DNA from: a virus
Virus record (IMG/VR): IMGVR_UViG_3300027762_000009
Span: 1-64,000 of that record
Direction: 5' to 3' (one strand)
DNA length: 64,000 nt
Positions 2,918-40,605 of the stretch are shown here, one piece after another (position 1 is the first letter of the stretch; each line of letters starts with the position of its first letter). The notes beneath the pieces are model-generated. The model saw only the letters and a list, made by a program, of their open reading frames with translations. It made no database searches and was not told the DNA's origin. The translations under genes were made by a program, and so were the position numbers.

Positions 2918-2932
2918 AGAGGAGTGGTACAA

Positions 2933-3739
2933 ATGAAAACATTGAAATTTGTAATTGCAACAATGTTATGCATTACACTTTGTTTCTCAGTTTTTACACT
3001 CGCAACTGCACAAGAGGTTAGAAGAACAGGGTTAGATATTACCAAAGCCCCATCTGTTAGGGTATCATCACAAGATATAAGTTTAAGTGATGATGGGCGA
3101 GCATTGCCGCGCAGACATGATTGGAGAGAACTAGATGGTGTGACTCCTGTTAGAGACCAAGGTGATGCGGGTACTTGTTGGGCATTTGCTACCACGGGAC
3201 CTTTGGAACATGCAATTAAAATTAAAGATAGGGTAGATGTTGATTTATCAGAACAGTTTCTTGTAGCTTACAATGAAGAGGGATATGGCGTAGATGGTGG
3301 TTGGTTCGCACATGATTATCATAAAAAACCTGGGGCTGTTTTAGAATTTGATTTCCCTTATACGGCTAATGAAATACCTGTATGGAATAATCCAGAATAT
3401 AATCACCCATATAAGATTAAAAAATGGAGTTACAACTCCTTTTATACTATGTCTGTAGCTACTTCGCGTAGTATGAAGAAAGCAATTTACAAACATGGTT
3501 CTGTTGCCGCTGCTGTATATGCTGATAATACATTCATAAGATACAAGGGCGGAATATATAAAGGAGTTAAAAACAGTGAGCAAATTAATCATGCCGTAAT
3601 GTTAGTTGGTTGGGATGATTTACAAGGTGTGTGGATCCTTAAAAACTCATGGAGTACTGATTGGGGCGAAAAGGGTTATATGAGAATTAAATATGGTGCT
3701 AATAAGATTGGGTTCGCCGCGAACTACGTTGTGTACTAA
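2933..3739 (+). CDS. Secreted papain-like cysteine protease (peptidase C1 family)
   Basis: I start at ATG 2933 because AGAGGAG lies 8 bases upstream; an in-frame GTG at 2924 sits inside that site. The 268-residue product has a signal peptide (MKTLKFVIATMLC..., cleavage near ATAQ), a short pro-segment of about 30 residues, and a complete C1 catalytic set: oxyanion Gln76 (VRDQG), nucleophile Cys82 (GTCWAFA), His220 (NHAVMLVGW) and Asn238 (KNSWSTDWGEKGY). Such proteases are rare in phage. It sits with tail and lysis genes and may act on host surface or spore-coat proteins, or be cargo. Activity is predicted from motifs; the target is unknown. Confidence 0.85.
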   Translation: MKTLKFVIATMLCITLCFSVFTLATAQEVRRTGLDITKAPSVRVSSQDISLSDDGRALPRRHDWRELDGVTPVRDQGDAGTCWAFATTGPLEHAIKIKDRVDVDLSEQFLVAYNEEGYGVDGGWFAHDYHKKPGAVLEFDFPYTANEIPVWNNPEYNHPYKIKKWSYNSFYTMSVATSRSMKKAIYKHGSVAAAVYADNTFIRYKGGIYKGVKNSEQINHAVMLVGWDDLQGVWILKNSWSTDWGEKGYMRIKYGANKIGFAANYVVY

Positions 3740-3786: not shown

Positions 3787-3978
3787 ATGCAAAAAACCTT
3801 AACTATGAAAAAATGGTACAGCTCTAAAACACTTTGGGCAAATGGTCTTGCTTTCGCTGCTATTGTTTTTCAGTTAATTTTAGACCAGGAAGTTATAGGT
3901 GCTGAGGCACAAGTAGCAATACTTAGTTTACTTAATGTTATACTACGTATAATAACAAAAGAATCTATTGAGTGGTAA
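3787..3978 (+). CDS. Small membrane protein, holin-like
   Basis: A 63-residue protein behind a strong AGGGAGGTAATTTAAT ribosome site. It has one clear hydrophobic segment (ANGLAFAAIVFQLIL) and a second amphipathic one (QVAILSLLNVILRIITK). The SSKTLWAN...ILRIITKE pattern is common in small phage proteins encoded near lysins. It is the last gene of the late block before a terminator. Possibly a holin or holin accessory; an in-frame ATG seven codons in is an alternative start. Confidence 0.55.
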   Translation: MQKTLTMKKWYSSKTLWANGLAFAAIVFQLILDQEVIGAEAQVAILSLLNVILRIITKESIEW

Positions 3979-3994
3979 TTAATCACTTAATTGT

Positions 3995-4025
3995 AAACCC
4001 TCTATTATAGAGGGTTTCTTTTTTA
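3995..4025 (+). terminator. Rho-independent terminator of the late operon
   Basis: A perfect 10-bp stem AAACCCTCTA / TAGAGGGTTT with a 3-nt loop (3995-4017) is followed by CTTTTTTTA. It closes the rightward late transcript after the small membrane protein. Confidence 0.85.
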
Positions 4026-4117
4026 TGGTTTTTAGAGATAGGCGATAGATCGCCCGCCTGTTTGTTCCTTATAAAGTTAGTTCATTTGGATGACAAGATA
4101 CAAAATAGGGTTTCTTG

Positions 4118-4147
4118 GAATAATTTGAGCGCATTTGGGAAATAATA
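4118..4147 (+). promoter_or_regulatory. Candidate forespore (sigma-G/F type) promoter of the SASP gene
   Basis: GAATA (4118-4122), an 18-base spacer, then AATAATA (4141-4147). The sigma-G consensus is GNATR-N18-CATNNTA, so only the first base of the -10 deviates. It lies about 50 bases upstream of a spore-protein gene, where such a promoter is expected. In AT-rich DNA chance matches occur, so this is a candidate only. Confidence 0.4.
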
Positions 4148-4194
4148 ATAATAGATGATAAATTCATCAATCTTATTATCAGGAGGATATAAAT

Positions 4195-4503
4195 ATGCCA
4201 AGACGTGGAGGAAGACATTACGTATTAGTTAAAGGAGCGGAACAAGCTTTAGATAAGTTTAAGATGGAAATTGCAGCAGACCTAGGATTAGATCATAAAG
4301 TAGATGCTGATGGAACATTTAAAAACTTCTCAACTATTGAAGTAGGTAAAATAGGTGGAGAAATGGTAAGAAGAATACAAGCAGCAGGTGAATATGCTAT
4401 TATGGAAAGATATCGTAAGGGTGAATTAAGATTAATGCCTGAGGATGTATTACCCGATCCAAAGAACGTACGTGAAGTATCTAACAATGGTAATAAAGTA
4501 TAA
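4195..4503 (+). CDS. Alpha/beta-type small acid-soluble spore protein (SASP)
   Basis: A 102-residue protein preceded by AGGAGGATATAAAT. It carries both SASP signatures: an N-terminal helix with a GPR-protease-type site (ALDKFKMEIAADLGL, residues 18-32) and the DNA-binding helix GKIGGEMVRRI (51-61). Alpha/beta SASPs coat DNA in dormant spores, push it toward an A-like form and protect it from UV and heat. The basic start MPRRGG resembles SASPs of Clostridia. It stands alone between two terminators with its own forespore-type promoter candidate, so it is an independent transcription unit. Known precedent: sspC lies in the SP-beta prophage of Bacillus subtilis. The role here, protecting phage or host DNA in spores, is inference. 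Confidence 0.85.
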   Translation: MPRRGGRHYVLVKGAEQALDKFKMEIAADLGLDHKVDADGTFKNFSTIEVGKIGGEMVRRIQAAGEYAIMERYRKGELRLMPEDVLPDPKNVREVSNNGNKV

Positions 4504-4510
4504 AAAAAAA

Positions 4511-4549
4511 AAGACACTGGAAATTAATCCGGTGTCTTCTTTTTTTTTT
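4511..4549. terminator. Bidirectional terminator between SASP and reductase genes
   Basis: AAGACACTGG (4511-4520) pairs with CCGGTGTCTT (4529-4538) with one G-T wobble. A T-tract follows on the + strand, and an A-tract before it gives a U-tract on the - strand. It serves both convergent genes. Confidence 0.85.
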
Positions 4550-4559
4550 ACGCAAAACA

Positions 4560-7500
4560 CTAACATTTACTAAAACCACAATTATAACAAACAACACAAC
4601 CCTCAGCTCTTATAATTGACTCTTTACACTCAGGACACACCGTTCCCATTTCAATAAACTCGTCGGATTCTTCCATAGGAATAATAGAATCTAATTCTAC
4701 AGAGTCTCTCGATAATTGAGTTAAACACTCTAAACCATCAGTAGTTTCTTCTGTTATATCCTCACTAAGCAGATTAACTACATCTTTTAATACACGCCCT
4801 ATTACATCTGGACATGATTTACCCTTTAATGTTGAATCCTTCCCAGCCTGATGTCTAAAATTATCACAACGTACAGAATTAAGCTGATCTATGATCTCCT
4901 CTGCAGGAACTCCATAGCGCAATGCAATAGAAATCAATCGTGCCATACCATCAGCATATCCGGCACACCCACCACCTGATAATCTTAATAGAGTCTCATA
5001 CGGACGATCACCTACAGTATTCACAGTAATCAACATCTTACCACAGCCTGTAGATACCTGTTTTGTAATCCCAGTTAATTCCTCAGGTCTTTTAAGTGGC
5101 TTAATTTCCTTTTGAGGCTCCATCAAAGCGGATTGGCGGTATTCACAATCACCACACACTGGTACGTCCGCAGATTCAGACGTATCTGCTTTTTCTTTGT
5201 TATTTTCACCCTTAGAAAGAGGTTGACTATTTCTTGAACCATCTCTATATACTGTAATACCTTTACAACCTAATTTATAGGCAAAGAGAAAAGATTCTTG
5301 TATTTCTTCAGGCGACACGCCATTATCAAAGTTGATGGTCTTTGATACTGCATTATCTGTATATTCTTGAAAAGCTGCTTGCATACGAATATGTTCAAAC
5401 GGATGTATTTCATTAGATATCTTAAATACCTCAACTAATTCAGGCATAATAGCATTAGCTCTTTGTACAGAGCCTGTTTCTTTAACTAAATCTAATATAT
5501 GCTGTTTCACATCGGTACCTAAATTAAAATTCTCTAATGCTTGTAAGAAACAGCTATCATACATAGTCATCGTATCTCCATCGGCAAGAGTTTTAGTTGT
5601 TAATAAGCCAAACAACGGTTCAATACCGCTTGATACACCCGCAATAATGCTTAACGTACCAGTGGGTGCGATTGTTGTCGTAGTAGCATTCCGAATTGAC
5701 ACACCCTCAGATGCCCATACTGAGTATTCCCAATTAGGAAATACCCCTTTAGTTTGTGCTAATAGCATAGAAGTTTCTTTAGATACGTCGTCTATAAAAT
5801 GCATTATTCTTTCCGCCAATAAAAGAGCTTCTGCGGAATCATAAGGGATGCCTAATTTGAATAACATATTAGCCCAACCCATTACACCTAAACCAATTTT
5901 TCTATTCTTTTTAACTTGTATTTCTATTTGGGGTAGTGGATATTTATTGATGTCAATTACGTTGTCTAGAAAACGCACAGCTATTTGAGTAACCGTTTTC
6001 AAGCGACTCCAATTAATACTTAAATCTGCTTCTCCTTTTACGACATAATCTAAAACCATATTTGATAAATTAATTGACCCTAAGTTACAAGCCTCATAAG
6101 GTAATAAAGGTTGTTCGCCGCAATTATGAATTAAAACATAATTAGCAAAGAAATTATGGCACTCTTCTACTTCCATATCATAAACATCTTCAGTATAGTC
6201 TAAGGGTACCACAGAAAGAAGACGCATATTAGCTCCTACAGGATGTACTCCCAATTTATTAGACCAATTTTTATCTTCTTTTATATTGGGTAGCCATCTA
6301 CCTGTAGAGGGATCATGTTGCATCCAATCAATATGACCCTTATTGCTTAAAACAGAATGATCTCCATGATTTAACACTTCTAAATTACTAAAGGCATTGT
6401 TTTTTCTATTATTGTCTTTATGATGTACATCCTTACCAGCCATATCTCCATAATAATGCTGAGCAATAAAAATATGTTCAGCAGGTACACTAGACCCAGT
6501 TCCAGTTAAATACACTTTAGTATATCTTTGATTTTTGGGTGCTACATTTAAAGCTACTAATTTATCAGTAGGTAGTAAATATTGAGCTTCTATATAACCT
6601 CTATTACGTGTATAAAATTTATGATCCGGTGTACAAATAACATTACCTTTAGTTGTAGATACTTTTAGCAATTTAGCATTCATCTTAGTTAGACGAATAT
6701 TTTTTGCTTTACGTATAGTCAATTGATATTTATCATTTACGCAATAAACATCAATCTCCTTTCCAACTAAATCTTTAATAGCAATCATACCCTCAACTGT
6801 TTTAATTAATGTATCACCAACTACGCAAGGATTAGTACTTTCTATATCTCCTAATGCAGGAAGTGTATTGTGTTTATTTATTTCATCTATGAAAATAACT
6901 CCAGGTTCTCCTGTGGTCCAGGCGCGTGTACTTATTTTATCCCATATTAATTTAGGATCTATTTTAGCATAGTCAATATTACCAAATTTTAAAGTAAAAG
7001 GGGTGTTATTTGAGAGGCATTGCATAAATTCTTCAGTTATAGCTACAGACATATTAAAATTAGTGAGTTGCTCTAAGTCTGCCTTAGCATCTATAAATTC
7101 CAATATATCAGGATGATCTATACGCATAACAGCCATATTAGCTCCACGACGGGCTCCTCCTTGTTTTACTTCTTCAGTTGCGGCGTTGAATACTCGCATA
7201 AAGCTTAATGGACCACTTGCCTCACCCACTGTACTTGTAACTGGATCTTCCTTAGGACGCAATCTACTAAAGTTAAATCCAGTTCCTCCCCCTGTTTTCT
7301 GAATAAGGGCCATATCTTTGATTGCTTGAAAGATACCTTCCATTGAATCCTCTACAGGTACAACAAAACATGCAGCCAATTGTCCTAGAGGTCTTCCTGC
7401 ATTCATTAATGTAGGTGAATTGGGTAAAAAATCTAATGAAGCCATGATATTGTAGAATTGTTTGGTTAATTTGTCTACAGCTTTATCTATTTCTTCTCGA

Positions 7501-7667
7501 TTATATTTAGCTTCCTGTAAATAAACTATCTCCGCTTTGGCAACACACTCAGCAACACGTAAAAACATTTCTTCCGGTGTCTCACCTCTTAAATATCTCT
7601 TCTTTAATACACGAAATGCATTTTCAGTTAACGCTTTTACTGGTTGAAATTGTATTTCTGAATACAT
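4560..7667 (-). CDS. nrdJ: Adenosylcobalamin-dependent (class II) ribonucleoside reductase with intein
   Basis: A 1035-residue precursor, start ATG at 7667 behind AAGGAGGAG. The extein (about 800 residues after splicing) matches class II Nrd[23 protein letters not shown], the radical-site stretch [20 protein letters not shown], and [21 protein letters not shown]-type C-terminal domain (about 850-950) and a Cys-rich tail (CPECKES...[12 protein letters not shown]) follow, the tail probably relaying reducing equivalents. An intein occupies residues 281-515, immediately before the thiyl-radical cysteine, so the enzyme is inactive until splicing. It makes deoxynucleotides from ribonucleotides without oxygen, which suits an anaerobic host that has or imports B12. 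It is the last gene of the leftward early operon. Confidence 0.93.
6123..6827 (-). mobile_element. Intein with HNH homing endonuclease inside nrdJ
   Basis: 235 residues begin with Cys ([10 protein letters not shown]) and end in VLIHN before extein Cys516. Splicing blocks are visible: block A CVVGDTLI, block B TPDHKFYT (TxxH), block [16 protein letters not shown] and block G VLIHN/C. Between B and F lies an HNH-type segment ([19 protein letters not shown]). All residues needed for protein splicing (Cys1, TxxH, terminal HN, Cys+1) are present, so it should be active. The +1 residue is the catalytic radical cysteine, a highly conserved insertion site. Confidence 0.9.
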
Positions 7668-12341: not shown

Positions 12342-13037
12342 TTATTTATAATATTCTAAAGGATCATTTATTCCGTTGGCAAGGAAAGCAGCTTTCCTAT
12401 CAATACAGGTAGCACAAATACCACAAGCCTTTAATCCACCTTCATAACAACTCCATGTTTTTGTGAAATCTACATCTAATGATATACCTTCAGCTACTAT
12501 CTCACTTTTTATCTTATACATAAAGGGTGCTATCAAATGTACTAAGCCTCCAGTGCCTAAATGTATAGCCTCTTGCATAGACGCAATAAAATAGGAAGTA
12601 CAATCAGGATAAGCATTACCAGCTGCATCGTCAGCATGAGCCCCGTAATAAATAGTATCTGCATCTTTCTGTAATGCTATTGCTGTAGCATAGGATAAAA
12701 ATAAACCATTTCTAAAAGGTACATAGGTTTTAACTGTACCTGTACCACCTATCTTATCTAATTGCTCTTTATAAGATTCGTGTGGAATATCTTCATCACT
12801 ACCATGTAATAAGGGGCAACTCGTATCAAACTTAAATACATCAGCTAGATCTGCTTGTATTAGTTCTACATTACAGTGTTCTACTTGCTTAACAGCACAA
12901 AATTGTTCTTTTTGATGTTTTTGACCATAAAATAAATTTAAAGCAATAACATTTTCCGCACCATATTTAGCTACGATATCAGCTAATAAAACAGAACTAT
13001 CTAAGCCACCACTAACTAATACTAATTTTTTATTCAT
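12342..13037 (-). CDS. queC: 7-cyano-7-deazaguanine (preQ0) synthase
   Basis: 231 residues, ATG behind TAGGAGGTAGGGAGT. It has the ATP pyrophosphatase loop SGGLDSS (9-15) and the zinc-binding cysteines C197, C205, C208 and C211 (CYEGGLKACGICATC). QueC converts 7-carboxy-7-deazaguanine to preQ0 using ATP and ammonia, the last step of the pathway present here. Normal length. Transcribed just before the DpdA-like gene. Confidence 0.95.
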   Translation of the reverse strand: MNKKLVLVSGGLDSSVLLADIVAKYGAENVIALNLFYGQKHQKEQFCAVKQVEHCNVELIQADLADVFKFDTSCPLLHGSDEDIPHESYKEQLDKIGGTGTVKTYVPFRNGLFLSYATAIALQKDADTIYYGAHADDAAGNAYPDCTSYFIASMQEAIHLGTGGLVHLIAPFMYKIKSEIVAEGISLDVDFTKTWSCYEGGLKACGICATCIDRKAAFLANGINDPLEYYK

Positions 13038-13049
13038 ACTCCCTACCTC

Positions 13050-13268
13050 CTATAATGTTGTATCTTGCTTTTCTTTGATTAAACGATCTAAATACCAACG
13101 AGCCTTTTTCAAATCTTCTAGACCATTCTTAGCTTGATATCTACAAACATATTTAATTACATTGCCTGCGCGAAAATCAAGTTTTTGATCTTCGATGAAA
13201 TCAATTACCTCTATCTTACCTTGATTATAATGTCCAGGATTATTCACCATATCATTGGGAACAGTCAT
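13050..13268 (-). CDS. DUF3310 family protein
   Basis: I choose ATG 13268 (MTVPNDMVNNPGHYNQG) because GGAGGGGGAAG lies just upstream; the longer frame runs into the preceding gene without a ribosome site. The 72-residue product shows the DUF3310 pattern NPGHY...IEVIDFIEDQ...GNVIKYVCRY...EDLKKARWYLDRL. The family is widespread in phages near nucleotide-metabolism genes. The start overlaps the end of the MazG-like gene by 17 bases. Biochemical role not established. Confidence 0.8.
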   Translation of the reverse strand: MTVPNDMVNNPGHYNQGKIEVIDFIEDQKLDFRAGNVIKYVCRYQAKNGLEDLKKARWYLDRLIKEKQDTTL

Positions 13269-13677
13269 CAGATTCTTCCCCCTCCATAATAGCTTTTTTG
13301 AGAACTTGATACAATTCTGTATTTTCGAAACATTTTTCTTTTGTATGCCGTGAAGCACTATCTGTTGTATTGAAAGTTTTATTATTATACCTATGTCTTA
13401 ATTTGCTAATATTAAGAGCCAATATCGTATCCATATTAATACGATTCGTTTTAGCTATGGCACTTATATACCACAACACATCTCCTAATTCTTTAGCTAA
13501 CTTCATTTTATCCAACTGTTCTTCATGAAATATATGATGTTTAAGTAATTCACATACTTCACCAGCTTCACCGGCTAAACCCAAAGCCCAATCCAACAAT
13601 TCAGCTTGCTTTGTGGTTAATTCCTTATGATCTTTAAATGTCCTACAGGCCTCTTTCTGGTATTCATTTGGGTGCAT
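13252..13677 (-). CDS. MazG-like nucleotide pyrophosphohydrolase
   Basis: 141 residues, ATG behind AAGGAGGTTTATT. The N-terminal 75 residues carry the all-alpha NTP-PPase signature: GLAGEAGEVCELLKHH then KELGDVLWYISAI, supplying the paired ExxE and ExxD metal ligands. These enzymes hydrolyse (d)NTPs to monophosphates; in phages they cleanse nucleotide pools or act on (p)ppGpp-related signals. The C-terminal 60 residues are charged and not recognised. It belongs to the nucleotide/modification cluster. Confidence 0.8.
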   Translation of the reverse strand: MHPNEYQKEACRTFKDHKELTTKQAELLDWALGLAGEAGEVCELLKHHIFHEEQLDKMKLAKELGDVLWYISAIAKTNRINMDTILALNISKLRHRYNNKTFNTTDSASRHTKEKCFENTELYQVLKKAIMEGEESDDCSQ

Positions 13678-13706
13678 AATAAACCTCCTTGGTTATAAAT
13701 GGAAAA

Positions 13707-13737
13707 GGAAGATGAACCACGGTGCCAGTTATCCCCC
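13707..13737 (-). promoter_or_regulatory. Leader hairpin upstream of the MazG-like gene
   Basis: On the - strand GGGGGATAAC pairs with GTTCATCTTCC, leaving one bulged C and a 10-nt loop. It fills the only gap in this part of the operon and resembles two other - strand hairpins at 16525-16559 and 21438-21481. It could be an mRNA-stabilising or processing element. No U-tract follows, so it is not a terminator. Confidence 0.4.
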
Positions 13738-13748
13738 TCTCCATAAGA

Positions 13749-13931
13749 CTAATTATTTAACTTTAAATCCATACGAATCACAGGGTTATTACCACCCATA
13801 TGATATACTTTCACTGTTCCTACCCTAACCTGAATTTCTGCTGAATACTTCATATTATCTTTTTTGTGATCAATACCACACTCCAATAGATGTTGAATTC
13901 TAACTAATTCTTCCTGACTAAACAAATCCAC
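13749..13931 (-). CDS. Unknown 60-residue protein
   Basis: GTG start at 13931 with GGGGG seven bases upstream. The N-terminal 25 residues are helical (SQEELVRIQHLLECG) and the rest forms likely beta strands (AEIQVRVGTVKVY). It lies between folE and the MazG-like gene. No family recognised; coding status is supported by position and ribosome site. Confidence 0.5.
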   Translation of the reverse strand: MDLFSQEELVRIQHLLECGIDHKKDNMKYSAEIQVRVGTVKVYHMGGNNPVIRMDLKLNN

Positions 13932-13949
13932 CTTAGTACCCCCTACTAG

Positions 13950-14579
13950 CTATTTTATTAAATTCATCAACTCAGTTCGTGCATTATTATGCTGTTCTAA
14001 AAAAACTCCCCTCATAGCGGATGTAACTGTTTTCGCCCCAAATTTTTGTACCCCACGCATAGTCATACAAAGATGTTCAGCTTCAATAATTACAGCAACC
14101 CCTCTAGGATTCAACACCTGTTCAATAGTATCTGCTATTTGTGAAGTCATCCTTTCTTGTATTTGTAATCGCTTTGCAAAACAGTCTACTAAGCGTGCTA
14201 ACTTACTGATACCCACTACTTTGCCATTTGGTATATAAGCCACATGAGCTATACCATGAAAAGTTACCATATGATGCTCACAATGACTATAAAACGGAAT
14301 ATCTTTTACAAGTACTAATTCTTGATGTTTTTCATCTTCAAATGTAATACCTAAAATATCTTTAGGAACTTGACTATAACCAGCAAAAATCTCATCGTAT
14401 AGGCTGGTTACTCTTTCTGGTGTTTCTAATAACCCCTCACGATGAGAATTTTCTCCAATACTTTCAAGCATTAAATTTACAGCTAACATTCTCTTAGCCA
14501 AATTACTTAACTCTTTTGTCCTTTGTAGATTTTCATGTATGGTAAGTGCTTCTTCTTTACTTATCTTGGCTTTAGCCAT
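13950..14579 (-). CDS. folE: GTP cyclohydrolase I
   Basis: 209 residues, ATG behind GGAGGGGTTAAG. Key segments are [11 protein letters not shown] (48-57), zinc ligands Cys100, His103 (SHCEHHM) and Cys171 ([10 protein letters not shown]), [24 protein letters not shown], and SAMRGVF at the end. It converts GTP to 7,8-dihydroneopterin triphosphate, the entry step to preQ0 when queD, queE and queC are present, as here. Normal length, no defects. Confidence 0.95.
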
Positions 14580-14594
14580 CTTAACCCCTCCACA

Positions 14595-15221
14595 TTATTT
14601 TAGATTGAATATCTTATGCATCTGTACTCCTAAACGAAGTATCCCTGCATGTTTATTACCTTCTGCCATTATGAAAGTATACGCCCTCATCGCGGAAGTC
14701 TGCATATCAAATCCATCTGGCTGCAACCACACTGGTACGATAAGACCTGTATTTAATAAAGTAATAATGTGTTTATCAAAATCTAACTCTTCTGTTACTA
14801 CATATTTTAGTTCATCAAATCTACATCTTGGATGTATTACATAATGAGGAGGCTTTGGTGAAGCTACAACCCAGTCTACATCCTCTGGTGTAGGCATAGT
14901 CGCATTTGTTTCTAAACAAACAATAAAATCATTTTGCCTAAGCTCTCGTACCAGTTGGGGTAAAAAAGGACTGACACATGGTTCCCCACCAGTAATTGTA
15001 ACCATATCGATATTTGCCGCTTTACATATACCAATTATTTCAGTTGTGGTCATCCTTGTGCCACCACTATGTCCCCATGATTCTTTTGTATCACACCAAG
15101 GGCAAGCTAAATTACAACCTCCTAGACGTATAAATGTTGTAGGTTGTCCTAGCATAGATCCTTCACCCTGAATGCTGGAAAAAATTTCTATTATATAAGG
15201 TCCTGTATTATTTTGATTCAT
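14595..15221 (-). CDS. queE: 7-carboxy-7-deazaguanine synthase (radical SAM)
   Basis: 208 residues. It starts with the QueE hallmark IFSSIQGEG and carries the radical-SAM cluster cysteines C36, C40 and C43 (CNLACPWC), then TITGGEPC. It converts carboxytetrahydropterin to 7-carboxy-7-deazaguanine using SAM and Mg2+. Its ATG overlaps the queD stop by four bases (ATGA), indicating translational coupling. Adjacent to folE. Confidence 0.95.
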   Translation of the reverse strand: MNQNNTGPYIIEIFSSIQGEGSMLGQPTTFIRLGGCNLACPWCDTKESWGHSGGTRMTTTEIIGICKAANIDMVTITGGEPCVSPFLPQLVRELRQNDFIVCLETNATMPTPEDVDWVVASPKPPHYVIHPRCRFDELKYVVTEELDFDKHIITLLNTGLIVPVWLQPDGFDMQTSAMRAYTFIMAEGNKHAGILRLGVQMHKIFNLK

Positions 15222-15661
15222 CTTATTACCTCCGCAAATGAACTAGGAGTTTCCCATAATCGTAAAACACTAATACGAAAAGGATAAGTGTGTTGTTTAA
15301 GATACTTGTTTAACTTTTCAATAAAATATTCTGCCATGCGCTCCGCTGTCGGTTTATAAGGAAAAGCATATGTCTTACGCCCATTTGATTTCAAAATATT
15401 TGCTATTTCATATTCGACTACATCTGTTGTTTGCGCCCAATACATAAAAGCATGATCAAGAGGGGCCACTACAACTTGATTTACTACCTCTTTTAACTGT
15501 TTAAAATCTACAACCATATCCATATCATCTAATATGGTGTTATACCTCGCTGCAGTTACTGTCATTTTGTAAGTATGTCCATGAATGTTAATACACAAAC
15601 CTTTATGGTCTGCTAACATGTGGGCCATATCCCATGTAAATTCTTTCGTAATAGTAATCAT
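15218..15661 (-). CDS. queD: 6-carboxy-5,6,7,8-tetrahydropterin synthase
   Basis: 147 residues, ATG behind GGGAGGAAGGTT. The catalytic and zinc motif GLCINIHGHTYK contains Cys23, His27 and His29; the family's other zinc His is in MAHML (H14). Residues near 63-75 (VVAPLDHAFM) hold the conserved LDH. It makes carboxytetrahydropterin from dihydroneopterin triphosphate, the second step to preQ0. First gene of the queD-queE-folE run after a terminator-like hairpin. Confidence 0.93.
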   Translation of the reverse strand: MITITKEFTWDMAHMLADHKGLCINIHGHTYKMTVTAARYNTILDDMDMVVDFKQLKEVVNQVVVAPLDHAFMYWAQTTDVVEYEIANILKSNGRKTYAFPYKPTAERMAEYFIEKLNKYLKQHTYPFRISVLRLWETPSSFAEVIR

Positions 15662-22657: not shown

Positions 22658-23145
22658 AAGATATCTTCACCTCTTTTGTAAAATAACAAAAAATATAGTC
22701 CATGCCTTATAGCATCACGTGAATGCTTCATACCCTCTTTCCAAAAACCCCATTCTTTTAATTTTCGATCAGTTACGAATGCTTTTGCTTGAGAAGCCAT
22801 TTGATATTGCACTGGCCTATGATGCTTCCAACAATGATAATCTATAGCACCAATTAATCTTAAAGTAGGTATTGCACTAAAACTATGTCTATCTAATTTA
22901 TGTTGGTATACTCTGTAATTTTCACATACTACGAAGTCATGTTCTTGACTCATTAATATTTCTTCTAAGTTATTCCAAAGTAAATCATCTTTGTTTACGG
23001 TCGCAGTCTGTCCCCAACTAGTTAATTTAGACCCATGAAAAATAGCATATCCAGTTGTTTCACCTGGATCTAAACATAATAAACTAACTGGTACCTTATC
23101 ATCTTTACGTGAGAGATTAAATAATTCTTCCCATTTAATCGACAT
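22654..23145 (-). CDS. RuvC-like (RNase H fold) Holliday-junction resolvase
   Basis: I start at ATG 23145 (MSIKWEEL); an upstream in-frame GTG lies within the ribosome-site region. 163 residues. The fold signature is LLCLDPGETTGYAIF (first Asp), DFVVCENYRVYQHK (Glu), PTLRLIGAIDYHC and a C-terminal HSRDAIRHGLYFL (Asp). This is the usual layout of phage RuvC-like resolvases, which cut branched DNA before packaging. It overlaps the end of the sigma-factor gene. Confidence 0.75.
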   Translation of the reverse strand: MSIKWEELFNLSRKDDKVPVSLLCLDPGETTGYAIFHGSKLTSWGQTATVNKDDLLWNNLEEILMSQEHDFVVCENYRVYQHKLDRHSFSAIPTLRLIGAIDYHCWKHHRPVQYQMASQAKAFVTDRKLKEWGFWKEGMKHSRDAIRHGLYFLLFYKRGEDIL

Positions 23146-23839
23146 AATATCCCATCTCCTCACACTTTTCTTTAATTTTTTGTATTACCCTTTGATGTCT
23201 TGTTCTTACATTTTGTATAGACATTCCTAAAATATCCGCCATTTGACTCATATTAAAGCGGGTTTTTTGTGATACTTCTCTAGCAGACTCAGACAAATAA
23301 CGTAATTCAAGCAAAGTCCATTTCTCTAAATCAATCTTAGTATTTTGTCCCTTAGTTGCATTAGCTATCTCCTTTATGCAAGGTTGAATTACCACATCAA
23401 ATAAACTAACCAAATCATTCTCTTCAATAATATTATTGAACTGTTCTTCGGAAAGTAAATCAGCAACAAGATCTGCATTACTAATTTCATGGCCATCTAC
23501 TAATATAAATGCATTAAGATATACCATCTTATCATTCAATATATTTTCGATCAATGTAGATGCATATCTATGTTGCCTATGCAATTCCCGTTCAATACAA
23601 AAACATGCGTAGGATGCAAAAGGCACCCCACGCTCTTCTTTGAATGTATCAACCGCAACTATTAACCCCATACAGCCTGCTTGATACTGATCATCAGAAT
23701 AAGGTCTCCATTTCTTTAACACATGGGAAACTAACTTCAAATTTTCTTCAACTATCGTATTACGATATAACAGTGCCTTTTCTTCTTCAGCCTTCATCCT
23801 TCTAAATAAATTCAATGTTCTTTCCTGGTGCAAATTCAT
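23135..23839 (-). CDS. Sigma-70 family RNA polymerase sigma factor
   Basis: I start at ATG 23839 (MNLHQERTL) because GGAGGAGG is upstream; a TTG 45 bases earlier is an alternative. 234 residues. Region 2 is clear: ENLKLVSHVLKKW, YQAGCMGLIVAVDTF and FASYACFCIERELHRQHR. Region 4 is a C-terminal HTH (MSQMADILGMSIQNVRTRHQ). The region 2 style resembles sporulation/flagellar-type sigma factors more than housekeeping ones. It may direct host polymerase to the phage's extended promoters, or interfere with sporulation; both are inference. Confidence 0.8.
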   Translation of the reverse strand: MNLHQERTLNLFRRMKAEEEKALLYRNTIVEENLKLVSHVLKKWRPYSDDQYQAGCMGLIVAVDTFKEERGVPFASYACFCIERELHRQHRYASTLIENILNDKMVYLNAFILVDGHEISNADLVADLLSEEQFNNIIEENDLVSLFDVVIQPCIKEIANATKGQNTKIDLEKWTLLELRYLSESAREVSQKTRFNMSQMADILGMSIQNVRTRHQRVIQKIKEKCEEMGYYVD

Positions 23840-23865
23840 AATAGATTCCCGCCTCCTCCGTATAA

Positions 23866-24102
23866 TTACTTGTGCCGTATCCAAATTAAAGATATTTCTG
23901 CCAATAATGCCATTAAATCATTATCAATCGAATCTGCAAATTGATCCGCAATCAAATCCAGTTGATTGGATAAAGCTGCTAAACGATTTATCTGTACCTC
24001 CTTAAGATAAATTAAATGAAATTCATTTAAACAAAAATCATCTAACATATCCGCCAATTTTGTTGCCTCTTGCCATGATAGTTTCGCTTTAGTATTTTCC
24101 AT
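23866..24102 (-). CDS. Unknown 78-residue helical protein
   Basis: ATG at 24102 behind GGAAGGGGGTTCTTT. All-helical and acidic (LSWQEATKLADMLDDFCL), ending in WIRHK. First gene after a promoter candidate and just ahead of the sigma gene, so it might regulate it. No family recognised. Confidence 0.55.
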   Translation of the reverse strand: MENTKAKLSWQEATKLADMLDDFCLNEFHLIYLKEVQINRLAALSNQLDLIADQFADSIDNDLMALLAEISLIWIRHK

Positions 24103-37147: not shown

Positions 37148-38164
37148 ATGCAGCCAACACAAGCAACAACAACTACAGCTATAGCGGCCCTAGACTGGGA
37201 TGCTAAAGGAATAACTTGTTATCAGAAGAAACTGGGAGATTTTGTACAAACATTACAACAAGATTGCGAAGTAAATAATATTGGGATGCCCTTAACTTAC
37301 GTGGATCCAACCGTCATTGCGGAAACCACCCACTGGTGCGCAAGTCCTGACGATATACCGGATGACAAATTTAATGCTTCAATTGTCCCTATAGAATTTG
37401 AAGACGGTCTGCCCACCGTAAATGGGTTACCCTTTTGGGAACGGCTAGATGGCGAAACGCTCCCGTACTATAATGTGTTCAAGCAATATAGGGACATGAA
37501 GTATTACAACAATACACATCTTAACACTCGTTCCATTGCGCGTTTAGGTGAGGAAATAGGAGTTCCTGGGAGATTTCTTTCAATCCTCGGAAGGATCTAT
37601 CATTGGTCACCGAGATGCAAGGCATTCGACATGTATCGAGAAAGAGAACTTCAACTTAGAAGACAAAGGGATATGGAACAATTAGAAAATAAGCACTCTA
37701 AATATGCAATGGATCTCTTAGAACAGGCAATCGCCTATTTGAAAGATAATCCAAAGCAGCTGAATCCTAAGACGGCTTTGGATATGGTAGAGTTAGGAAT
37801 GAAATATGGGCGTGTTTCAGCAGGCCTACTAGGTGATAAGCCTGGGCAAACAGCAGCTTCTTCCGTTCATCAAACAAACATTGCAATTCAGTCCAATTCA
37901 AACACCCAAATGGATCATTCCCAAAATGGGGTTGTGCTGAATAACGGAACTGGTTCCAATAGTCCTGCTGGGCGGAAGTTAGCTGATAATTTAAAAGACA
38001 ATGGTACTTTGGCAAGTATCTTACATGTCCTGAATAGATCTGGTGCCCTCTCCACAGCGGCACCAGAAACCCCTATTGAAACTACTATGGATGAGACTCC
38101 AATCGTCGATGTTATAGATATAACACCAATTGAAACAAATAGCAAAGAAGGTGAAAATGTATGA
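37148..38164 (+). CDS. Terminase small subunit-like protein
   Basis: 338 residues, ATG behind AGGAAGGGAGGAAACACGT. The part around residues 97-165 (PFWERLDGETLPYYNVFKQY, TRSIARLGEEIGV and IYHWSPRCKAFDMY) has the layout of DNA-recognising small-subunit terminases with an early HTH. A coiled segment follows (RRQRDMEQLENKH), then a Ser/Asn/Thr-rich tail. It overlaps the large subunit start by four bases. The assignment rests on pattern and position. Confidence 0.75.
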   Translation: MQPTQATTTTAIAALDWDAKGITCYQKKLGDFVQTLQQDCEVNNIGMPLTYVDPTVIAETTHWCASPDDIPDDKFNASIVPIEFEDGLPTVNGLPFWERLDGETLPYYNVFKQYRDMKYYNNTHLNTRSIARLGEEIGVPGRFLSILGRIYHWSPRCKAFDMYRERELQLRRQRDMEQLENKHSKYAMDLLEQAIAYLKDNPKQLNPKTALDMVELGMKYGRVSAGLLGDKPGQTAASSVHQTNIAIQSNSNTQMDHSQNGVVLNNGTGSNSPAGRKLADNLKDNGTLASILHVLNRSGALSTAAPETPIETTMDETPIVDVIDITPIETNSKEGENV

Positions 38165-38715
38165 GTACATTCTTACGCAGTAATTCGCAAAAGGCTCCAA
38201 ATCGTAGCGAAGAGAAACCTTCGGCAATAAACCCACCTGGTACGTTAAACGATTTGCTAAATAGTTTAAATGTTGCCAATATTGATTTTAATGCCTTGCC
38301 CAGATCTGAATTAGCAGTCCTCCAACAGCTGCTTACGCCTAAAATGACTCAGTATATCCCACATGTGCCAACACCTAAACAAGCAGCCTTCCTCCTTTTG
38401 GACTGCAAAGAGGCTTTTTATGGCGGAGCCGCTGGTGGGGGTAAGAGTGATGCTCTACTTATGGGAGGTTTGCAGTATGTAGATACTAAGGGATATGCTG
38501 GAATCATTTTTCGTAAATCGTATGCAGATTTAACAAAGCCTGGTGCTTTGATAGATAGAAGTAAAGAATGGTTATTTAAGTTTAATGATGTACGATGGGT
38601 TGAAAAAGATAAGAAATTTGAATTCTTTAAAAAATATGGACCCCATACAGAAGTGTGGTCAATCCTTCAATTCGGATATTTGGAAACAGCTAATGACAAG
38701 TACAACTATCAGGGT
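38161..38715 (+). CDS. terL: Terminase large subunit, exon 1
   Basis: 185 codons up to the predicted 5' splice site. The ATPase domain begins here with Walker A GGAAGGGKSD (88-97) and GIIFRKSYADL. Read without splicing, the frame stops at 38742 after QLIHCPPE, before the Walker B motif. Joining 38715 to 39601 keeps the frame and creates YQGGEYQFVGFDELTH, the expected terminase stretch. The spliced protein is 519 residues. It is the motor and nuclease that packages phage DNA. Confidence 0.9.
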
Positions 38716-39600
38716 CAACTTATTCACTGCCCTCCAGAGTAGTTGTATTACATAACCGGTATATGAGACGGTATCTGGTATTGCGTGAACGCATGTAAAA
38801 GCGGTGTGCAAAAGACAAGAAGAGTAAACGGAGGTTGAAGAGTATGTCTTTTAAAGTAAATGAAATCCTAGGTGATATGCAAATTCTAAAAATTGATACA
38901 AAAAACAAAGCCCGACCTAAAGTCGTATTAAAATGTCAGATTTGTGGTTATGTAAGAACAATTGGCCAATCTGCTTTATATAGGGGTGTAGGTAGAACAC
39001 ATCAAGCCTGTATCCAGGCAATTCAAAAGAATTGTGTTCCCGAAGATAAAGATAAACTAGAACGTTTTAGACTAGTTTATCATCAGGCAGAACAACGTTG
39101 TAATAACCCAAACATAAGTAATTATATGAATTATGGTGGGCGGGGTATAAAAATGTTATTTAAAGATTATGCACATTTTTATTGTGTTATGTGGTCCTCT
39201 TACAGAGAAGGTTTAACACTAGAAAGAAAAGACAATGAGGGACATTATACACCAGAGAATTGCTGTTGGGTAACACGTAAAGAACAGGCTGTTAATAGGC
39301 GTACTAGTATAAAAATAATAGCTACTAAAGTAGCTACAGGTTATACTAAATACTATGCCACCATCACTGATTTTTTACAGGAAAACCAAATGTCTTTAAA
39401 TATAGGTGGAAATATTAAAAATTGTATCGATAAACCAAATAGAACCTATCTAGGATGGAAATTTATAAGTGCTAACGGGGAACCCCCAAAGATGGAATCC
39501 CGTGCCAAGCCTATATAATAGGAAGGTGTAGAGACTAATTGTACACTAGGGATTAACACTAGTGGAAGTGCGCAAAGTAAAAAGAGATAGTCCGTACTAG
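38716..39600 (+). mobile_element. Group I intron in terL
   Basis: 885 bases. The 5' exon end AGGGT (38711-38715) pairs with GCCCT (38729-38733) to form P1 with the U-G wobble at the splice site. The 3' end has P7 GACTA (39533-39537) / TAGTC (39588-39592), a P8-type stem CACTAG/CTAGTG between, and the typical AGATAGTCC. The intron ends in G (39600). Splicing restores the terminase frame exactly. It contains an HNH endonuclease gene. Confidence 0.88.
38844..39518 (+). CDS. Intron-encoded HNH homing endonuclease
   Basis: ATG at 38844 behind GGAGGTTGAAGAGT; 224 residues. A zinc-type CQIC lies near residue 32. The core (about 85-155) reads RCNNPN...[11 protein letters not shown], then [19 protein letters not shown] and [11 protein letters not shown], the HNH/NUMOD-type pattern common in phage introns. 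The C-terminal 70 residues probably bind DNA. It should cut intronless terL alleles and spread the intron. Confidence 0.88.
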
Positions 39601-40605
39601 GGTGAATATCAATTTGTAGGCTTTGATGAGTTAACACATATTGATATGAGTAATTATTTATATATGTTTTCTCGTATGAGAAGACTCAAGGGATCTAATG
39701 TACCATTGCGTGTTAGAGGGGGAAGTAATCCTCCTGACGATGATCAAGGTATTTGGGTTTATAATCGTTTTGTTAATCCAGAAACAAAGAAAGATGGTTT
39801 AATTTTTATTCCGGCAGGTATGGATGACAATCCATATCTTGATTCAGAAGAATATGAAAAGTCTCTTGAAGAATTAGATCCCGTAACAAGGGCGCGTCTT
39901 CGCGACGGTGACTGGACTATTACACGTAAAGGCAATATGTTTAAACGAGGTTGGTTTGAAATAGTGGATAGTGCTCCTACTTATAGACGTAAAGTGCGTT
40001 TTTGGGATATGGCCGCTTCTGATGAAGAAAAGGCTAAAAAACGCAATAAGTCAAATGAACCGGATTATACGGTTGGGTTACTGATGAGTGAAGCAGCTGG
40101 AATTTATTACATAGAAGATATTATTCGTGTAAGAAAAAGGCCGGCTGAAACAGAACAATTACAAAAGATTACTTCGGTAACTGATGGGCATAATGTAGCT
40201 ATTAGAGAAGAACAGGAGCCTGGTTCTTCTGGAATAACTACTATTGATATGAAGGCAAGAAATATTTTTGTTGGTTTCAACTATCAAGGAATTCGTTCTA
40301 CAGGATCCAAGATTCTTAGAGCACAAGGATTTAGTGCCGCGGCAGAAAGAGGACAAGTTAAAATAGTAAGAGGCTGTAGACACATTGAGGAATTTTTTAA
40401 TGAATTAGAAAGCTTCCCAGGCGGACTGCACGATGATATGGTTGATTCGGCCAGTGGAAGTTTTTCCGAATTAAAATTTATCCCTCAGGATACCGCTCCT
40501 TTGACTATAGAAAATTATGAAGGTTCTTATTGGGCTGATGAAGACACATTGGGCTCTGGTTATTTTAGAGATATAAAATCTTTTGTTAGAAGGGAGGTTA
40601 GTTGA
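39601..40605 (+). CDS. terL: Terminase large subunit, exon 2
   Basis: 335 codons including stop, starting at the 3' splice site with GEYQFVGFDELTH (Walker B). The RNase H-like nuclease domain has acidic residues in VRFWDMAASD, IREEQEPGSSG and LHDDMVDSASG. An internal ATG at 39646 lies within the exon and is not a start. It overlaps the portal gene by four bases. Confidence 0.9.
   Translation, partial: GEYQFVGFDELTHIDMSNYLYMFSRMRRLKGSNVPLRVRGGSNPPDDDQGIWVYNRFVNPETKKDGLIFIPAGMDDNPYLDSEEYEKSLEELDPVTRARLRDGDWTITRKGNMFKRGWFEIVDSAPTYRRKVRFWDMAASDEEKAKKRNKSNEPDYTVGLLMSEAAGIYYIEDIIRVRKRPAETEQLQKITSVTDGHNVAIREEQEPGSSGITTIDMKARNIFVGFNYQGIRSTGSKILRAQGFSAAAERGQVKIVRGCRHIEEFFNELESFPGGLHDDMVDSASGSFSELKFIPQDTAPLTIENYEGSYWADEDTLGSGYFRDIKSFVRREVS

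Follow-up and report, generated by a model that had tools for sequence, protein, structure and literature searches.

We describe a diverged subfamily of alpha/beta-type SASPs that appears to be new: it lacks a close match among 84,980 bacterial and archaeal species and, together with a conserved forespore-type promoter, moves from one phage lineage to another; no integrase is detectable in the phages concerned. The comparisons suggest that a phage endowed with its own SASP gene and such a promoter is adapted to ride in dormant spores, and carriage in spores with self-supplied protection is our best-supported inference. The window, i.e. the whole stretch of viral DNA analysed, spans positions 1 to 64,000 of the IMG/VR record IMGVR_UViG_3300027762_000009.

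SASPs coat DNA inside bacterial spores; those of the alpha/beta type bind DNA non-specifically and are degraded by GPR at germination. Phage SASPs are already known from SP-beta, the SPO1 group and CampHawk, and the CampHawk genome paper proposed that such a protein protects phage DNA (PMC3868849). The literature searched, with most subscription papers outside its coverage, holds no prior report of the present subfamily or of its conserved promoter. SASP genes are absent from Table 1 of a paper that surveyed gut phages for sporulation genes (PMC10294663), and the main text of a comparison of 61 B. subtilis-group phages, BSP7 included, mentions neither spores nor SASPs (PMC9756591).

The SASP gene and its expression unit

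The features on which the analysis draws are listed below.

3995..4017, plus strand: intrinsic terminator (stem-loop with T run) at the end of the preceding operon, insulating the SASP unit
4117..4147, plus strand: predicted forespore-type (sigma-F/sigma-G) promoter element, GNNATAA-N13-GGNN[A/C]ATAATA, conserved upstream of the SASP gene in relatives
4182..4187 (approximate), plus strand: ribosome-binding site AGGAGG, read from the sequence
4195..4503, plus strand: alpha/beta-type SASP gene, 102 amino acids, with the SASP domain at residues 10-61 followed by a C-terminal extension
4511..4538, plus strand: intrinsic terminator (stem-loop with T run) 3' of the SASP gene
23135-23884, minus strand: phage sigma factor with a region 2 similar to that of sporulation sigma factors, and with relatives in records G002 and G005
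L007:20001-20366: SASP gene of phage BSP7 with re-set start; the annotated gene begins at an ATG 18 codons further in, and L007:20001 is taken as the start on the evidence of homology, a TTG codon and a good ribosome site

The 102-residue product matches the Pfam family PF00269 with an E-value of 7.7e-14 (51.8 bits, for a cut-off of 22), and its gene is the sole SASP gene in the 64,473-base virus record. The initial annotation had recognised an alpha/beta SASP with both signature helices, which the Pfam match and the presence of E25-I-A, G51 and G54-G55 confirm. Its description of a gene isolated between terminators also holds, both flanking stem-loops (3995-4017 and 4511-4538) carrying a T run; five terminators were detected in the SASP region versus 1.1 expected. 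On the opposite strand, a ribonucleotide reductase (RNR) gene faces the SASP gene.

The RNR large chain (4560-7667, minus strand) is split by an intein bearing an HNH endonuclease domain. On the other side of the SASP gene, a papain-type (C1) cysteine protease with an apparent signal peptide (2924-3739, plus strand) adjoins a small holin-like membrane protein (3787-3978); such a protease is unusual next to a phage lysis module. Stem-loops in the 5'-UTR of the SASP genes were considered as a possible feature and set aside: suggestive by eye, they were clearly unusual in only one of six cases.

A separate branch of the SASP family

Relatives of the window SASP, 61-77% identical over about 100 residues with the C-terminal extension included, were found in six IMG/VR records (G001/L002; G002/L003; G003/L004, close to G002; L005; L006/G004, with a protein identical to that of L005; and G005/L013) and in the five B. 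subtilis phages of the BSP7/BSTP group (BSP7, BSTP5, BSTP8, BSTP10 and BSTP12). A scan of 84,980 bacterial and archaeal species for short peptide patterns, which may miss a distant member, recovered no full-length close relative; its two weaker matches came from clostridial MAGs, the stronger being an ordinary SASP (93.8 bits). Further viral scans returned no additional lineages of the subfamily.

By its Pfam match, the phage protein is a diverged member of the alpha/beta SASP family. Residues E25, A27, G51, G54 and G55 are kept in all seven subfamily sequences and all 30 cellular SASPs compared, and every subfamily member retains the G-x-x-G-G turn of the second helix as well as the E-I/V-A GPR site, which C. 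difficile SASPs possess in the same 'EIA' form (PMC8452069). Residue 29, four after the cleaved Glu, is D in the seven phage sequences and in none of the 30 cellular ones, where E is near-invariant; residue 48, before the glycine turn, is I, V, L or A in the phage proteins (I in the window) versus R in 29 cellular proteins and K in one, the near-invariance of E29 and R48 being a regularity of the compared set rather than a proven requirement. SPO1-type and gut-phage SASPs retain E and R at these two positions, which indicates that the subfamily is a separate branch. The C-terminal extension, shorter in the window copy than in its relatives, is common to the subfamily and absent from the canonical SASPs compared. 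Given the extension and the change of two near-invariant positions, DNA binding by the phage SASP cannot be assumed.

The AlphaFold2 model of the window SASP comprises two helices, residues 15-29 and 47-74 (pTM 0.63). A foldseek search with this model yielded no SASP or SspC match and is uninformative, since the protein is small and the known structure is DNA-bound. A profile restricted to the subfamily matched SspC on DNA (2z3x) weakly, with an E-value of 0.022; an apparent match at 8e-11 was discarded because it was inflated by an SPO1-type row, the lower significance being obtained once that row was removed.

Movement of the SASP unit between phage lineages

The window phage, G002, G003 and G005 have in common terminase, portal and major capsid proteins that are about 52-63% identical. 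The partial G001 and BSTP10 (39 of 55 kb compared) have about nine to twelve proteins in common with the window or with each other, mostly encoded by replication and 7-deazaguanine genes. The window SASP is nearer to that of G001 (77% identity; 61% for BSTP10) than to those of its own phage lineage, and the DNA polymerases of the SASP-carrying phages are 29-55% identical to the window's. The location of the SASP gene varies: its neighbours are lysis-type and RNR genes in the window and the small terminase in G002, G003 and G005, while it follows RNR in G001 and lies close to the terminase of BSP7. It opposes its neighbours in G002, G003, G004 and G005, and also in Goe9 and SP-beta; in BSP7, with 70 annotated genes, no other gene lies on the same strand. 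These comparisons show that the SASP unit moves between phage lineages.

Other observations concern the genomes that carry it. The window contains QueC, FolE, QueE and QueD genes of the 7-deazaguanine pathway (12342-15661, minus strand), and a 7-deazaguanine set is also found in G001, G002, G005 and BSP7/BSTP10, i.e. in every SASP lineage whose replication region was available, a small sample that possibly reflects shared inheritance. The large terminase gene (38161-40605, plus strand) consists of two ORFs that match a single intact protein in three relatives, with another ORF (38835-39518) in between; the split is likely due to an intron or homing-endonuclease insertion, and a search of Rfam found no known intron there. 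Finally, a similar sequence (CGTACCAGGGTGGTG...) lies downstream of the SASP gene in L003, L004 and L006.

A conserved forespore-type promoter element

The predicted promoter comprises a -35 box GAATA (4118-4122), an 18-nt spacer and a -10 box AATAATA (4141-4147). As first annotated, GAATA-N18-AATAATA lies one mismatch from the sigma-G consensus GHATR-N18-CATHHTA. The same DNA, with GGAAATAATA at 4138-4147 as its sigma-F-type -10, is also one mismatch from the sigma-F consensus GTATA-N15-GGNAANAMTR, which is that of B. subtilis as tabulated in PMC3416734. The lone sigma-G match was ruled out as evidence: sites with at most one mismatch occur 28 times in the window versus 32.1 +/- 6.3 in shuffles, so a single one proves nothing by itself. 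Nor would the cellular motif alone pick out this site, which ranks 29th of 128,000 positions when scored with a PWM derived from 17 cellular SASP promoter sites.

It is the comparison across relatives, not the single match, that settles the predicted promoter. One exact copy of the pattern given in the feature list is present in each of the eight phage sequences searched (BSP7 and BSTP10 being near-identical, and G002 and G003 close), always just upstream of the SASP gene, with 0 expected by chance; no copy precedes any other gene in all the sequence of these eight phages. This final pattern was drawn up from all lineages together and is descriptive, the published consensus being the fairer test; L013, recovered after the pattern was first noticed, also fits it. 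In an alignment of six lineages on the -10 box, the mean pairwise identity is 65% over the 30-nt element versus 34% in the 60 nt before it and 33% in the 45 nt after.

Within 160 nt upstream, a site with at most one mismatch to sigma-G was found for five of six SASP genes versus about 4.6% of the 429 other ORFs of the same six genomes, BSP7 being scored in this comparison from its longest ORF, whose start is upstream of the true start; scored separately, the BSP7 SASP promoter has two mismatches to sigma-G and one to sigma-F. Sites within one mismatch of sigma-F precede the SASP genes of the window, G002 and G003, and none of the 429 other ORFs. Since the lineages are related by descent, such counts are not independent draws, and the sharp drop in conservation outside the 30-nt element is the stronger argument.

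Two positive controls behaved similarly: at most one mismatch was found for 15 of 33 cellular and plasmid SASP genes (loci oriented, fixed consensus) versus 6.6% in shuffles and, where SASPs of other phages or prophages were grouped into 18 upstream clusters, for 10 of these versus 7.6% in shuffles. Two clusters of related prophages display GAATA-N17-AATAATA, with boxes identical to those of the window, and the tabulated forespore promoter of Epulopiscium dacF has GTATA/AATAATA (PMC3416734).

As sigma-F and sigma-G promoters overlap in C. difficile (PMC7438776; PMC3789822) and the window site fits both consensuses, the predicted promoter is best called forespore-type (sigma-F/sigma-G), a name that is well supported. 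The sigma-G promoter of the initial annotation is thus retained as a forespore-type promoter, on the strength of its conservation across phage lineages, while the choice of sigma-G alone was too specific. Overall, the SASP finding is real, the case for the promoter is stronger than first stated and that for sigma-G weaker, and the functional reading is plausible.

Comparison with known phage SASPs

Like the window gene, SP-beta sspC is an alpha/beta SASP gene borne by a phage and isolated on the strand opposite to its neighbours. Its promoter, GTATA-N17-CATAATA, matches both sigma-G boxes with a spacer of 17 instead of 18, and its expression is sigma-G dependent (PMC8270828). In contrast to the window phage, SP-beta is an integrating prophage, and its SspC is a canonical protein of 72 amino acids that keeps E and R where the window SASP differs and lacks an extension. 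The SASPs of BSP7 and BSTP5/8/10/12 belong to the same subfamily as the window's (61% identity over 98% of the query) and have the same promoter element, whereas the gene content of these phages sets them apart as a different lineage (the compared part has nine similar proteins, with a median identity of 31.5%) and they carry the SASP gene on the strand opposite to all others. In the SPO1 group (SPO1 gp34.25, CampHawk, Goe9), the SASP gene is found in virulent phages, with no other gene on its strand over the stretch examined; the protein is canonical, lacks the extension and is about 35% identical to that of the window, and its promoter is a weaker match with two mismatches to sigma-G.

Probable spore carriage and alternative explanations

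We consider it probable that the SASP gene forms a self-contained unit read by sigma-F/sigma-G in the forespore, whose product would coat the phage genome and allow the phage to survive in the spore. The proposed unit consists of a terminator, the forespore-type promoter, the SASP gene and a second terminator, in a carrier phage with no detectable integrase. Host RNA polymerase carrying sigma-F and/or sigma-G would read this unit during forespore formation in an infected cell, or in a cell with a trapped phage genome; the phage SASP would then join the host SASPs coating spore-core DNA, phage genome included, and the phage would persist as a 'virospore' and resume after germination. Neither integrase nor resolvase, sought as signs of lysogeny, was detected, so entry into the spore would need entrapment rather than lysogeny; entrapment of phage genomes in spores has been described (PMC9429907).

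Alternatively, the SASP could be made during vegetative infection and serve takeover by coating and silencing host DNA, the element then being a vegetative or phage-sigma promoter. SASPs are harmful when produced in growing cells, which engineered SASP phages reportedly exploit, and the 7-deazaguanine genes of all lineages with an available replication region imply that phage and host DNA may differ. A phage-encoded reader is conceivable in the window phage, G002 and G005, which encode the sigma factor listed above; its region 2 in the window best fits the SigK, SigG and SigF models, far below their cut-offs. However, no sigma-70 region 2 was found in BSP7 (complete genome), which has a region-4-like match only, or in G001 (partial), and the element precedes no other phage gene, so a general role for the phage sigma factor as reader of the element is unlikely; in the window phage, it might provide some additional transcription. 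The element is overlapped by a sigma-A-like site, TTGAGC-N16-AATAAT, but such sites are no commoner in the region than by chance (7 vs 9.3), and cellular SASP genes are preceded by the same type of element. We judge a vegetative role unlikely.

The phage SASP might instead act on the sporulation programme of the host, through spore DNA packing or maturation, and not on phage DNA protection. In C. difficile, cortex formation requires SASPs, and these proteins affect sporulation (PMC11392383; PMC8452069); in B. subtilis, sporulation is altered by sporulation sigma factors that phages encode (PMC9429907). The SASP effect was reported for C. difficile, whereas the cultured relatives considered here infect B. 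subtilis, and we hold this explanation to be quite unlikely. That the gene is a neutral host-derived passenger retaining its old promoter, as its likeness to sspC of SP-beta, a known phage-borne SASP gene, could suggest, is highly improbable: continued selection is indicated by a SASP identity of 61-77% where the DNA polymerases of the same phages show 29-55% identity to that of the window, and by 65% identity within the element versus 33% in its flanks, and no close cellular member was found among the 84,980 species.

Within spore carriage, a bolder variant, to which we give only a small chance, is that the protein is not a borrowed SASP but a phage-specialised spore chromatin protein. The changed GPR site, the loss of Arg and the conserved C-terminal tail might give it a preference for phage DNA, which is possibly 7-deazaguanine-modified, or keep it on the DNA past germination; the phage would then gain an advantage over its host when the spore revives.

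Evidence for phage adaptation to spore entrapment has so far been thin. A SASP gene with its own forespore-type promoter, exchanged between otherwise distinct phages and preceded by an element that no other phage gene uses, is a specific genomic sign of such an adaptation. As BSP7 and the BSTP phages infect B. subtilis, the idea is directly testable there.
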